Assembly (NCBI RefSeq): GCF_002043005.1
Contig: NZ_CP020330.1
Span: 828,501-892,500 of the forward strand
Length of the DNA stretch: 64,000 bases
Reading direction: 5' to 3'
Source of the DNA: Martelella mediterranea DSM 17316
GTDB lineage: Bacteria > Pseudomonadota > Alphaproteobacteria > Rhizobiales > Rhizobiaceae
Positions within the stretch are counted from its first letter, which is position 1, and each line of letters begins with the position of its first letter. Shown piece by piece: positions 206 to 46,755 of the stretch. The translations under genes and the position numbers were made by a program. Under the pieces are notes generated by a model, which was not told where the DNA came from, ran no database searches, and saw only the letters and a program-made list of their open reading frames with translations.

Positions 206-1231
206 TTATTCTTCGCCTCTCACGAGCCGGACAAGCGCTGCCACATGCTCCGGATCGGCCTCGGGCGTGATTCCGTGGCCAAGATTGAAGATCAGCGGTC
301 CGTCCGCAAGCGCTTCGAGAATGGCAAGGGCGCGGCTTTTCATCGCATGGCCGCCGGCGACCACGGAAAGCGGGTCAAGATTGCCCTGCACTGGCCCATC
401 CTTCTGCAGGTCTCTGGCGATGGCAAGAGGCACCGTCCAGTCGAGGCCGATCGCGTCCGCGCCAGTCTTGGCGCGATACGAGGCGAGGTTGGGGCCCGCG
501 CCCTTGGCGAAGGCGATGATCTTCGCCTCCGGATGCGCCGCCCGCACTTTCGCAACGATCCGCGCGACGGGTGCCGCAGCAAAGTCGGCAAAATCCTCCT
601 CGCCGAGCACACCGGCCCAGCTGTCGAAGATCTGCACCGCGCCGGCGCCGGCCTCAAGCTGGCGGATCAGGTAATCGGCCGAGAGATCGGCAAGGTAGTC
701 GAGCAGTTTCAGGAATTCGCGTCTGTGGCGATAGGCAAACAGCCGCGCCGGCGCCTGGTCGGGGGTGCCGCGTCCGGCAATCATATAGGTCGCCACGGTA
801 AAGGGCGCGCCGCAGAAACCGAGCAGCGCCGTTTCCTCCGGTAACTCCCGGCGTATCCGCCTCACCGCTTCGATGACCGGATCGAGCCGGCCTGCGTCAT
901 AGCTCTTTTCAAGAGCCAAGATGCCGTCTGCGTTGATCGGATCAAGTCTCGGTCCTTCCCCGGCCTCAAAGCGGACATTGCGCTTCAGCGCATCGGGAAT
1001 GACCAGAATGTCGGAAAACAGGATCGCCGCGTCAAAGCCATATCGCCTGATCGGCTGCAGCGTCACTTCCGTTGCAAAATCCGGATTATAGCAGAGGTTC
1101 AGAAAGCCTCCGGCCTTCTCCCGCACGGCGCGGTACTCCGGCAGATAGCGTCCTGCCTGGCGCATCAGCCAGATCGGCGGCGGGTTTACGGTTTCGCCAT
1201 CCAGCACCCGTTCCAGTGCTCTTTTCGCCAT
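206..1231 (-). CDS. hemE: Uroporphyrinogen decarboxylase
   Basis: This 341-residue protein has the usual HemE length. It carries the N-terminal signature [14 protein letters not shown] at about residues 21-34, which binds the substrate carboxylates, and the early aspartate region ([16 protein letters not shown]) expected of the family. HemE removes four acetate carboxyls from uroporphyrinogen III to give coproporphyrinogen III in the cytosol. It reads away from the putative replication origin and is followed by hemJ on the same strand. In Caulobacter and Sinorhizobium the gene next to the chromosome origin is also hemE, which is why the gap upstream of its ATG deserves attention. Confidence 0.95.
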
Positions 1232-1639
1232 ATCCCCAGCCTCGCCTCTAAATGAATCTTGTTATCTTCGGTTTCTTTTATTTCTTAGAGTCTGTGACGA
1301 TCAAGGATTAAAGCTTTTGCCGCAGTTATGAGTCATTTCCCCGGTTTCCAGTTTCGCATCGATGATTTTTGGAACCGTGATTTCGGCAAACCGGGGATTT
1401 CGCTGTTCACCTCAATGGATTCAACGCCTCCCGGCTCTGGCGCAAGACGGAAACCCTGTGTAAAACCCACGGCAAAGCGGTGCGATGGTCGGCATTGTCC
1501 CCGTTTTCAACAGGCTGGATTTCACGCTTCCGTCATTTGAGCATATGTGGATAAACACGCGCACTGCCCACAGGCGAAAACCGGATGAGATTTTTCGTCC
1601 CGGTTTCTCCAATGTTATGAACAGCAGGCGAAGGACATC
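1232..1639. other. Putative chromosomal replication origin (oriC) between hemE and ppsR
   Basis: This 408-bp gap holds no plausible gene. Seen directly: one perfect DnaA box (TGTGGATAA, 1546-1554); degenerate boxes near 1457 and 1503 with two mismatches each; an AT-rich stretch at about 1250-1330; and four CcrM-type GANTC sites at 1254, 1288, 1330 and 1418. Known: chromosome origins in Caulobacter and in Sinorhizobium lie beside hemE, and CcrM methylation of GANTC marks replication state in these bacteria. Inferred: this is oriC or part of it. Promoters of the two divergent operons must also lie here. Confidence 0.7.
1546..1554 (-). promoter_or_regulatory. Perfect DnaA box (TTATCCACA on the minus strand)
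   Basis: The plus strand reads TGTGGATAA, the exact complement of the DnaA consensus TTATCCACA. It sits 85 bp upstream of the ppsR start, in the hemE-ppsR gap. A single exact box can occur by chance; its position beside hemE is what gives it weight. Confidence 0.65.
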
Positions 1640-2461
1640 GTGGAAAACCGGAAAAACTTCTTTCACCTGCATCTGATCTCCGATTCGACGGGCGAAACGC
1701 TGATCTCGGCGGGCCGCGCGGTATCCGCCCAGTTCGGCGGTCATGAGCCGATCGAGCATGTCTATCCGCTCATCAGAAGCCGCAAGCAGCTGCTCACCGT
1801 GCTGCGCGCGATCGATGATGCGCCGGGCATCGTGCTTTATACCGTGGTCAACGAGGAGCTTTCCGCCCTGATCCACGAAATGTGTCGCGACATGGGCGTG
1901 CCGAGCGTCAATGTGCTGGAGCCGGTGGCCGCCGTCTTCCAGTCCTATCTCGGCACCACGCTGCAACGCCGCGTCGGCGCCCAGCACAGCCTCAACGAGG
2001 ATTATTTCGCCCGCATCGAGGCGCTGAATTTCACCATGGAACATGATGACGGCCAGATGCCCGAGACCTATGACGAGGCCGATATCGTCATACTGGGGAT
2101 CAGCCGGACATCGAAAACGCCGACATGCGTCTATCTCGCCAATCGCGGCGTCAAGGCGGCCAATATCCCGATCGTGCCGGGGGTTGCCCTGCCGGACAGT
2201 CTCTACAGCGCTGAAAAGCCGCTGATCGTCTGCCTGATCGCGTCCACGGGGCGGATTTCGCAGGTGCGCGAATATCGTGAATTCGGCGCCGGCGGCGATC
2301 ACGGCAAGAGCGATTATACCGACCGCGCCGTCATTGCCGAGGAGCTGAAATATGCCCGCTCGCTGGCCGCCCGAAACGACTGGCCGATCATCGATGTCAC
2401 GCGCCGCTCGATCGAGGAGACGGCGGCCGCCATCCTCGCCCTGAAACACCAGCGCGGCTGA
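1640..2461 (+). CDS. ppsR: Pyruvate, phosphate dikinase / PEP synthase regulatory kinase-pyrophosphorylase
   Basis: A 273-residue protein of the DUF299/PPSR family. The N-terminus has [11 protein letters not shown] (about residues 9-19) and the central P-loop-like signature GISRTSKTP lies near residues 152-160; both are diagnostic. The family switches pyruvate phosphate dikinase or PEP synthase off and on by ADP-dependent phosphorylation and Pi-dependent dephosphorylation of a threonine. The start is a GTG at 1640 with AAGGA just upstream. It is the first gene of a plus-strand run (ppsR-maf-aroE-coaE-dnaQ) reading away from the putative origin. Confidence 0.9.
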
Positions 2462-2480: not shown

Positions 2481-3095
2481 ATGAGCGCTACCTATGAAAA
2501 ACCCGCGATCGTGCTTGCCTCGACCAGCCCCTCGCGCCGGGCGCTGCTCGCAAATGCCGGACTCGTCTTCACCGCCAAAAAGCCCGATGTCGACGAGCGC
2601 GCCGTCGAAGCGCCCTATCTGAAGACGGGCGCAACACCCGCCTTCCTGGCGGCTCTGCTGTCGCGCGAAAAGGCGCTCGCTGTTTCGGCGCGGGCGGAAA
2701 ATGCTTTTGTGATCGGTGGCGACCAGGTCATGGAATTCGAAGGCCGGCCCTATTCCAAGCCGGAAAGCCGGGAAGAGGCCCGCGATCATCTCAAGCGGCT
2801 TTCGGGCAAAAGCCATTCGCTGATCAGCGCATTCGCCATCGCCAGAGACGGCGAAATTGTCTTCGAAGCCGCGGAGACGGCGCGGCTCACCATGCGCACA
2901 CTCGGTGAGGCGGCGATCGATCGCTATCTCGCGCTGCTACCGGATGAGGTGCTTTTTTCCTCCGGCGTTTACCAGCTTGAAGGACCGGGCGTGCAACTGT
3001 TTTCGAAAATCGAGGGCGACTTTTTCACGATACTGGGCCTGCCGATGCTGACGCTTTTGAAGGCCTTGCGCAAACTGGGAGCGATTGATGAATGA
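2481..3095 (+). CDS. maf: Maf-family nucleoside triphosphate pyrophosphatase (YceF-like)
   Basis: A 204-residue Maf protein. It has the N-terminal signature LASTSPSRRALLANAGL (about residues 11-27), the conserved aspartate in VIGGDQVM, and the C-terminal YQLEGPGVQLF...GDFFTILGLP block typical of the YceF subgroup. These enzymes hydrolyse modified or non-canonical nucleotides (YceF prefers 7-methyl-GTP) to monophosphate and pyrophosphate. A good Shine-Dalgarno, AAGGAGAG, precedes the ATG. It starts 19 bp after ppsR and its stop overlaps the start of aroE. The exact substrate cannot be told from sequence. Confidence 0.88.
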   Translation: MSATYEKPAIVLASTSPSRRALLANAGLVFTAKKPDVDERAVEAPYLKTGATPAFLAALLSREKALAVSARAENAFVIGGDQVMEFEGRPYSKPESREEARDHLKRLSGKSHSLISAFAIARDGEIVFEAAETARLTMRTLGEAAIDRYLALLPDEVLFSSGVYQLEGPGVQLFSKIEGDFFTILGLPMLTLLKALRKLGAIDE

Positions 3096-3948
3096 TTCAC
3101 GTGAAACGGCAAAGCCAAGGGCCTGCGTCATCGGCCATCCGGTGGATCAATCGCGCTCGCCGCTGGTGCATGGCTACTGGCTGAAGAAATACGACATTGA
3201 CGGGGACTATGTCCGCCAGGATGTCGCGCCCGGCGCAATCGGCGAATTCATGGAAAAGTTGCGTTCCGGCGAGGCCGGCTATGTCGGCTGCAATGTCACC
3301 ATGCCCTACAAGGCCGCGGCCTTCGAGCTTGCCGATGAGCGCGACGAGCTTGCCACCACGCTCGGCGTCGCCAACACGCTGTGGGTGGAAGACGGCCGCA
3401 TCCACGCCACCAATACCGATGGATTCGGCTTTGCCAGCAGCCTCGACGCGCTCCATCCCGGCTGGGATTATGCCGAGCGCGCGGTGGTGCTGGGCGCCGG
3501 CGGCGGGGCGAGCGCCGTGGTGCTGGCGCTGAAGAACCGCGGCTTTTCCCATGTCCATATCGTCAACCGCACGCTGGCGCGCGCCTCCGAACTCGCCTTC
3601 AGGCTCGGCGACCGGGTCCATGCCCACGACATGGACAATCTCGAGGCGGTGATGGAAGGCGCGGGCCTGTTCGTCAACACCACCTCGCTCGGCATGAAGG
3701 GCGGCGCGGTGCCGGATTTCGATTTTTCGCCACTGCATGAAAACGCGATCGTCGCCGATATCGTCTATGTGCCGCTCGAAACGCCGATCCTCAAACAGGC
3801 GAAACAACAGGGTTTCAGGACCGCCGAGGGGATCGGCATGCTGCTTTATCAGGCCGTGCCCGGTTTCGAGAAATGGTTCGGCAGGACGCCCGAGGTCGAT
3901 GACGGGCTGATGACCGAAATCCTCGCCGATCTCGGGGAAACCGCATGA
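3088..3948 (+). CDS. aroE: Shikimate dehydrogenase
   Basis: AroE reduces 3-dehydroshikimate to shikimate with NADPH in the aromatic amino acid pathway. The 286-residue protein has the substrate motif QSRSPLVHGYW near residues 18-28, catalytic Lys in GCNVTMPYKAAAF, Asp in NTDGFGF, and the NADP Rossmann stretch VLGAGGGASAVV followed by NRT. ATG at 3088 is preferred over the TTG directly before it. The start overlaps the maf stop and the end overlaps coaE (ATGA), so translation is probably coupled through the operon. Confidence 0.93.
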   Translation: MNDSRETAKPRACVIGHPVDQSRSPLVHGYWLKKYDIDGDYVRQDVAPGAIGEFMEKLRSGEAGYVGCNVTMPYKAAAFELADERDELATTLGVANTLWVEDGRIHATNTDGFGFASSLDALHPGWDYAERAVVLGAGGGASAVVLALKNRGFSHVHIVNRTLARASELAFRLGDRVHAHDMDNLEAVMEGAGLFVNTTSLGMKGGAVPDFDFSPLHENAIVADIVYVPLETPILKQAKQQGFRTAEGIGMLLYQAVPGFEKWFGRTPEVDDGLMTEILADLGETA

Positions 3949-4568
3949 TCGTGCTCGGCCTCACCGGATCGATCGGCATGGGCAAGTCGACCACGGCGGG
4001 CTTTTTCGCCGAGGCCGGCATGCCGGTCTTCAATGCCGATGACGCCGTGCACCGGCTTTATCGCGGCCGTGCTGTCGAACCTGTGGAAGCGGCCTTCCCC
4101 GGCGTCGCCGTCAATGGCGCGATCGACCGGCAGAAGCTCAGCAAAGCGCTTGCCGGCAAGGCCGAGAACTTCAAGCGGCTCGAGGCGATCGTCCACCCGC
4201 TGGTGCGCGAGGAACGACGCGCCTTTCTGAAACAGGCCAGCGTCGATGGCGCGCCGATCGCGGTGCTCGACATACCGCTGCTTTACGAGACCGGCGGCGA
4301 GCGCGATGTCGATTATGTCGTGGTCGTCACCTGCGATCCGGAAATCCAGCGCCAACGCGTGCTGTCGCGGCCGGAAATGACGGTGGAAAAACTCGAAACC
4401 GTGCTGAAACAACAGTTCCCCGATGGCGAAAAACGCGCGCGGGCCGATTATATTGTCGACACTGGCAATGGCATGGACGCGGCGCGCGCGGCGGTTGGCG
4501 CGATCATTGCCGAACTGAAAACACGGGGCCCGCGGGCGACAAGAGACAGCACAAGGGACAGCATCTGA
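3945..4568 (+). CDS. coaE: Dephospho-CoA kinase
   Basis: CoaE phosphorylates the ribose 3'-OH of dephospho-CoA, the last step of coenzyme A synthesis. The P-loop GLTGSIGMGKST is at residues 5-16, the substrate-binding Asp-Asp follows in FNADDAVH, and DIPLLYE lies in the middle, all as expected. The length of 207 residues is normal, with a slightly extended basic C-terminus (RGPRATRDSTRDS). It overlaps aroE by four bases and its stop shares a base with the dnaQ start. The other CoA gene in this window is coaBC at 10841. Confidence 0.93.
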   Translation: MIVLGLTGSIGMGKSTTAGFFAEAGMPVFNADDAVHRLYRGRAVEPVEAAFPGVAVNGAIDRQKLSKALAGKAENFKRLEAIVHPLVREERRAFLKQASVDGAPIAVLDIPLLYETGGERDVDYVVVVTCDPEIQRQRVLSRPEMTVEKLETVLKQQFPDGEKRARADYIVDTGNGMDAARAAVGAIIAELKTRGPRATRDSTRDSI

Positions 4569-46674: not shown

Positions 46675-46755
46675 AGCCGCTTGTTTCACGTGAAAAACCA
46701 CCCTACATCGCGCAGGAAGCCTTGCGCGGTGTAGCCAAGGCCGGTCCTTGCCTGC

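Follow-up and report, generated by a model that had tools for sequence, protein, structure and literature searches.

Where on the chromosome of Martelella mediterranea does replication start, and what in the DNA around that place could make it an origin? The genome comprises 5,693,067 bases in four contigs, and the contig considered here, C1 (4,671,477 bases), opens at dnaA (C1:121-1539). In many bacteria the origin lies beside dnaA. The first-pass annotation of the window, by which we mean the whole stretch of 64,000 nucleotides analyzed (C1:828501-892500), had placed a probable chromosomal origin in the gap between the divergent genes hemE and ppsR. This gap lies 830 kb from dnaA on the same contig. 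The gene pair, the conserved DnaA-box columns, the parS sites and parAB close by and the absence of RepC matches from C1 support that proposal, and we consider it very probable that this gap is the chromosomal, DnaA-dependent oriC of C1.

The gap measures 408 bp (window 1232-1639, C1:829732-830139; positions below are those of the window, and features carry no strand unless one is given). It is bordered on the left by hemE (206-1231, minus strand; TIGR01464, 388 bits) and on the right by ppsR, of the COG1806/Kinase-PPPase family (1640-2461, plus strand; NF003742, 325 bits; PF03618, 289 bits), matches that bear out the divergent arrangement first reported. The same pair encloses the origins of Caulobacter crescentus and R. 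prowazekii (PMC1914354); hemE-COG1806 origins are already known, and the Martelella-type gap is a further case. Besides the border genes, Cori, the C. crescentus origin, shares with the gap strong and weak DnaA boxes, an AT-rich part and several GANTC sites (PMC1914354, PMC8959179, PMC3973325). The closest named loci, as judged by PpsR, are those of other Martelella (L067, 99%; L068, 94%), and a keyword search of literature titles returned no published Martelella origin. The single-strand structure of the gap is ordinary (z -0.40), no RNA family exceeded threshold within 1000-1900, and no intrinsic terminator was found in 1200-1660.

The annotation had named a location of hemE on a secondary replicon as one case that would speak against an origin here. 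This is not what we find: the contig carries dnaA, and the five matches to the RepC family (PF03428) in the genome are confined to C2, C3 and C4, with none on C1, which therefore does not look like a repABC replicon. A high GANTC content is shared by the two kinds of origin, those of repABC replicons also being reported as GANTC-richer than expected (PMC11514494).

The ParABS system furnishes evidence that the first-pass annotation had not used and that we regard as stronger than that from the terminus and skew. A search of all 5.69 Mb with TGTTTCACGTGAAACA, allowing up to 2 mismatches, gave five sites, against 0 for the backwards control. All of them lie on C1, at 815,285, 823,019, 825,013, 831,593 and 875,182, that is, 14.4, 6.7, 4.7, 1.5 and 45.0 kb from the gap and hence all within 46 kb of it; the two at 823,019 and 825,013 are perfect. 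Two of the five lie inside the window, namely TGATTCACGTGAAACG, with 2 mismatches, at the maf-aroE junction (3093-3108), and a site with 1 mismatch at 46682-46697 (C1:875182-875197). Counterparts of the former occupy a like position in Martelella and Agrobacterium-type loci; a parS-like site with up to 3 mismatches is present somewhere in 32 of the 49 loci examined, and 17 are without one. The parB gene occupies C1:820,991-821,503 and is adjoined by an ORF with ParA-type domains, from which the gene order runs onward through gidB (rsmG), mnmG, mnmE, rho and hemJ to hemE. The proposed origin has both parS and parAB close by, in keeping with a five-order survey that found parAB close to ori in almost all genomes (PMC8116508). 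A close parallel is Hyphomonas neptunium, where parAB lies ~7 kb from hemE with two perfect parS sites, the skew is unclear and marker frequency peaks close to hemE (PMC6650430); that origin was placed by measured marker frequency, whereas the one on C1 is proposed from sequence.

The same searches bear on the alternative that the origin sits beside dnaA, at position 1 of C1. In its favor, the assembly opens there, and the survey puts dnaA close to ori in the Rhizobiales (PMC8116508). However, neither a parS-like site nor a perfect DnaA box occurs within 35 kb of position 1, and the GC skew is negative on both sides of it, in the pieces sampled at 4,420 and 50 kb, and we hold this alternative to be exceedingly improbable. 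Because the assembly starts at dnaA, 830 kb off, replichore, gene-dosage and strand-bias analyses should use ~C1:830 kb.

Within the gap, a perfect DnaA box, TTATCCACA, lies on the minus strand at 1546-1554, exactly where the first-pass annotation had it; the degenerate boxes reported with it are likewise present, but they number three rather than two, each with 2 mismatches: TTTTACACA (1457-1465, minus strand), TTTTCAACA (1504-1512, plus strand) and TTATGAACA (1615-1623, plus strand). The single perfect box is weak evidence, because TTATCCACA occurs 12 times genome-wide, fewer than the 27 copies of the backwards control, and we rejected it as an origin marker. In the window alone, boxes with up to 1 mismatch number 4 against a chance mean of 3.75. 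Conservation gives a different picture, one of several boxes, above chance and conserved: the box columns kept in at least 60% of rows number 7 among the 8 Martelella-type rows, where 299 shuffled motifs gave a mean of 0.35 and at most 3, and 4 among the 21 wider rows, where the shuffled motifs gave a mean of 0.04 and at most 1, both row sets counting the window itself. The column of the perfect box stays within 2 mismatches in 8/8 and 21/21 rows; the columns at 1457-1465 and 1615-1623 are kept in 8/8 rows each and in 13/21 and 19/21, respectively, and that at 1504-1512 is kept in 8/8 Martelella-type rows and in <60% of the wider 21. Two of the columns kept in the first set, and one of those kept in the second, overlap the start regions of the border genes and for that reason may be kept on other grounds.

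A set of relatives was fetched by PpsR, that is, by protein and without use of the conserved block described below. Of its 54 loci, 46 were counted. The other eight are L099 and L101, where hemE was not found; L113, which nearly duplicates the window but matches hemE in part and comes from a MAG assigned to a different genus; and L116-L120, Actinobacterial matches only 24-29 residues long. In the 46, boxes with up to 1 mismatch reach 5.95/kb in the gap versus 0.22/kb in the flanks, a density 27 times as high, and every gap (46/46) holds at least one; GANTC reaches 8.3/kb in the gap versus 1.97/kb in the flanks, with at least three sites in 27/46. In the Agrobacterium-type loci (L081-L089, eight Agrobacterium and one Rhizobium rhizogenes), a gap of ~408 bp and the block recur as here, along with a 1-mismatch parS-like site at the maf-aroE junction similar to the one in the window, whereas their gaps hold 1-2 GANTC sites against the four found here. 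Agrobacterium ori1 is DnaA-dependent (PMC11514494), and we infer that it corresponds to this hemE-ppsR gap. As to L113, a MAG named Parasphingorhabdus, its hemE and ppsR are 95-98% like those of the window, and it is probably a Martelella contig binned wrongly.

The four GANTC sites, GAATC at 1254-1258, GAGTC at 1288-1292, GAGTC at 1330-1334 and GATTC at 1418-1422, span 169 bp end to end, in line with the 170 bp within which they had been reported. The first and third are kept in 8/8 Martelella-type rows, window included, the fourth in 8/8 when it may move by one column (3 + 5), and the second, which lies within the conserved block, is likewise kept in all 8. GANTC is otherwise depleted in the window (46 sites versus 343 in shuffles), and 0.44% of 408-bp steps reach four; tighter four-site clusters occur elsewhere, at C1:974581, 974545, 2811497, 2811504 and 4310795. 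The comparison of boxes and GANTC with other sequence, which the annotation had proposed as a check, came out in favor of the gap: when 621.5 kb of sampled DNA was scanned in 11,766 overlapping steps of 408 bp for 2-mismatch boxes and GANTC, the only step that rich in both falls on the gap, beginning 7 bp to its left and counting 5 boxes where the gap itself has 4. The AT-rich stretch is also real, the first 100 bp of the gap (1232-1331) having 62-68% AT in 60-bp windows, and this side is a putative DNA-unwinding element; the gap as a whole has 49.3% GC versus 55-66% in the 44 sampled pieces, its AT content thus being above average. Four matches to what we take to be the IHF consensus occur in the gap, every one 2 mismatches off, among them the weak site GATCAAGGATTAA (1299-1311, plus strand). 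Cori has five CtrA sites, whereas the gap has none within 2 mismatches of TTAA-N7-TTAA (PMC1914354, PMC8959179); such sites are not strictly defining, putative origins without them having been reported (PMC1914354). The genome has one CcrM-type methylase by RAMA search (N6_N4_Mtase plus RAMA, 373 aa), and among 14 control genomes RAMA gave a match in Caulobacter only.

GC skew, the check that the first-pass annotation had listed first, gives a divided answer. Sampled in 44 pieces (40 stretches plus the window in four parts), it is positive in 20/20 pieces from 0.97 to 3.165 Mb, negative in 15/16 from 3.27 Mb round to 0.75 Mb and mixed in the eight pieces between 780 and 910 kb (2 positive, 6 negative). 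The terminus accordingly falls at 3.165-3.270 Mb and its antipode at 0.829-0.934 Mb, with the gap just inside the edge. A two-break fit puts the origin switch best at 920-960 kb and next best at 520-540 kb, and interpolation gives a minimum at 950 kb. Over the contiguous stretch from 720 to 1000 kb, the cumulative skew is lowest at 968,307, which is 138 kb away from the gap. The terminus lies roughly opposite the gap; the minimum and switch are fitted 90-138 kb away, and skew failed as a fine locator of the origin. The octamer GGGNAGGG, a marker of strand, changes orientation best at 843,766-870,780, 14-41 kb from the gap. We read these offsets, speculatively, as noise or local rearrangement. 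A separate observation concerns C1:930000-970000, which has steady negative skew and three reverse copies of GGGNAGGG (939755, 943525 and 950282), opposite to expectation; an inversion or insertion confined to this region may have displaced the minimum of the skew.

Against an origin in the gap, then, stand the skew minimum elsewhere, the octamer switch, the distance of dnaA, the lack of a CtrA site and the perfect boxes, which are not enriched. The switches, at 920-968 kb for skew and 844-871 kb for the octamer, would also suit an alternative in which the gap does no more than house the divergent promoters of hemE and ppsR together with conserved regulatory sites, and the origin lies elsewhere within ~150 kb; indeed, both genes need promoters in the gap. 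That alternative accounts poorly for the conserved DnaA-box columns and the box density in the 46 relatives, for the adjoining parS and parAB and for the matching gene pair at known origins, and a strict sigma-70 scan of 1200-1660 gave no promoter-like site, which with 0.3 expected by chance is a weak argument. We consider it quite unlikely.

Taking the gap as the origin, its anatomy suggests the following course of events. In the right part (1457-1623), DnaA would bind the perfect box along with three or more weaker ones, and this binding would melt the AT-rich, hemE-proximal side that holds the block, an order suggested by the layout of the two parts. Two forks would then leave toward the terminus near C1 3.2 Mb, and ParB on the parS sites at about -6.7, -4.7 and +1.5 kb would separate the newly copied origins. 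The four GANTC sites are probably methylated by CcrM and would therefore pass through a hemimethylated phase once replication has initiated.

The most conserved stretch of the gap is not a strong DnaA box; it is a 38-bp block, TTTTATTTCTTAGAGTCTGTGACGATCAAGGATTAAAG (1276-1313, plus strand), seen in three alignments of loci hand-picked for diversity (A1, the window plus 7 loci; A2, plus 20; A3, plus 27). A sequence-only profile of the block, R1, built from A3, matches a single place in this genome, with 150 of 401 candidates scored; in the order and family samples 38 or 39 were scored per genome, and because candidates were scored only in part, weak extra copies could be missed. In a sample of 149 genomes from the order, 5 have the block, namely this genome and four others belonging to its family; in a sample of 151 from the family, 124 have it, at one place each and always beside hemE or ppsR. 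Strict filters may lose weak matches in these counts, which also favor A3-like sequences because R1 was built from A3. The block thereby provides a sequence tag for origins of the family, occurring once per genome where found. A limited keyword search of the literature returned no description of it.

Among the 124 block loci, which as fetched are short, 99 have both hemE and ppsR (divergent in 99/99), 23 hemE alone and 2 ppsR alone. The block lies upstream of hemE; in the 99 loci, the distance between its GANTC and the start of hemE ranges from 49 to 103 bp, with a median of 62. When the block was placed with its five GANTC letters masked, the site was in register in 98 of the 99 loci and shifted by one base in the remaining one (L220). 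GANTC is kept in 122/122 copies read from loci with hemE, 120 of them by script with one base of play and two by eye (L264 and L269, with GAGTC and GACTC); the other 2 of the 124 (L194 and L227) have no hemE in the locus and were left out. Since other columns of the block are equally invariant, the constraint is not on GANTC alone. The middle base is G in 77 and C in 43 of the 120 script-read copies, never A or T, both of which do occur in the other GANTC sites of the gap, and on a FastTree tree of HemE it has changed between G and C at least 18 times. In the protein-fetched loci, TTCTnnGAnTCnGT is present in 41/46 (36 G, 5 C), and the five without it (L109-L112 and L114) are all filed outside Rhizobiaceae. 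CcrM accepts any middle base in GANTC, and because this specificity leaves the restriction to G and C unexplained, we propose that the sequence probably has a further reader, unless the sample is biased.

What the block does is framed by a puzzle: a CcrM-type site is kept family-wide in a DnaA-dependent origin, yet in published work CcrM is dispensable for initiation in Caulobacter, and in Agrobacterium no visible change of ori1 follows its depletion. The DNA content profile of Caulobacter cells without CcrM is normal, and in the authors' view control of initiation does not depend on CcrM, although its overproduction had earlier been reported to give extra chromosomes (PMC3973325); in Agrobacterium, depletion gave no obvious and overproduction no significant change at ori1 (PMC11514494). 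The notion that methylation at the block gates re-initiation is disfavored, CcrM loss having left initiation in Caulobacter and ori1 duplication in Agrobacterium unchanged in these reports. One possibility is that the block, rather than being an unwinding element, serves hemE transcription as a promoter that includes a methylation-type site. Its position upstream of hemE agrees with this, as do the importance for replication of hemE transcription in the Caulobacter origin, where it is CtrA-repressed (PMC8959179), and the loss of CcrM without a change in initiation, which leaves transcription as a possible use (PMC3973325). On the other side, the columns of the would-be -35 hexamer on the hemE strand vary, and the strict sigma-70 scan found no promoter in the block. 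We rate this possibility at somewhat short of an even chance, and the block may serve both transcription and unwinding. With considerable doubt, we further advance a Rhizobiaceae origin element of the approximate form TCTTCTrwTTCTwwGASTCkGT, whose GA(G/C)TC core would be under selection of its own and would be read either by an unknown origin factor or by the CcrM/GcrA system through an effect on hemE transcription across the origin; fork passage would in this way be coupled to that transcription, with the element itself dispensable for initiation.

Two resemblances in the block were also noted. A weak box-like TGTG adjoins its GANTC, and the consensus of its right half, TGTGGGTATCAAGGATT (window 1293-1309), agrees in 14 of 17 letters with what we take to be box R1 of E. 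coli oriC and the bases that follow it, the window's own letters agreeing in 12 of 17, a post hoc likeness that may be due to chance. A 75-base E. coli oriC query had a match in 5,370 of 5,426 E. coli genomes.

Other parts of the genome yielded several minor observations. A second ParB-like gene (59.7 bits) lies at C1:2805492-2820000, near a piece with 55.2% GC and a tight GANTC cluster, and this region is perhaps an integrated element. The genome search gave a second match, of 59 bp, on plasmid contig C2 (L002 1501-1559, C2:347460-347518); it was rejected as a second origin, being a fragment of the hemE coding region with 93% identity to window 1142-1200, the rest of hemE being absent there. 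C3 carries three RepC genes (2391, 76594 and 97825), pointing to a plasmid cointegrate or to a joined assembly. The RepC matches of C2 and C4 have equal scores and near-identical coordinates, while the ParB-family scores of the two contigs differ.
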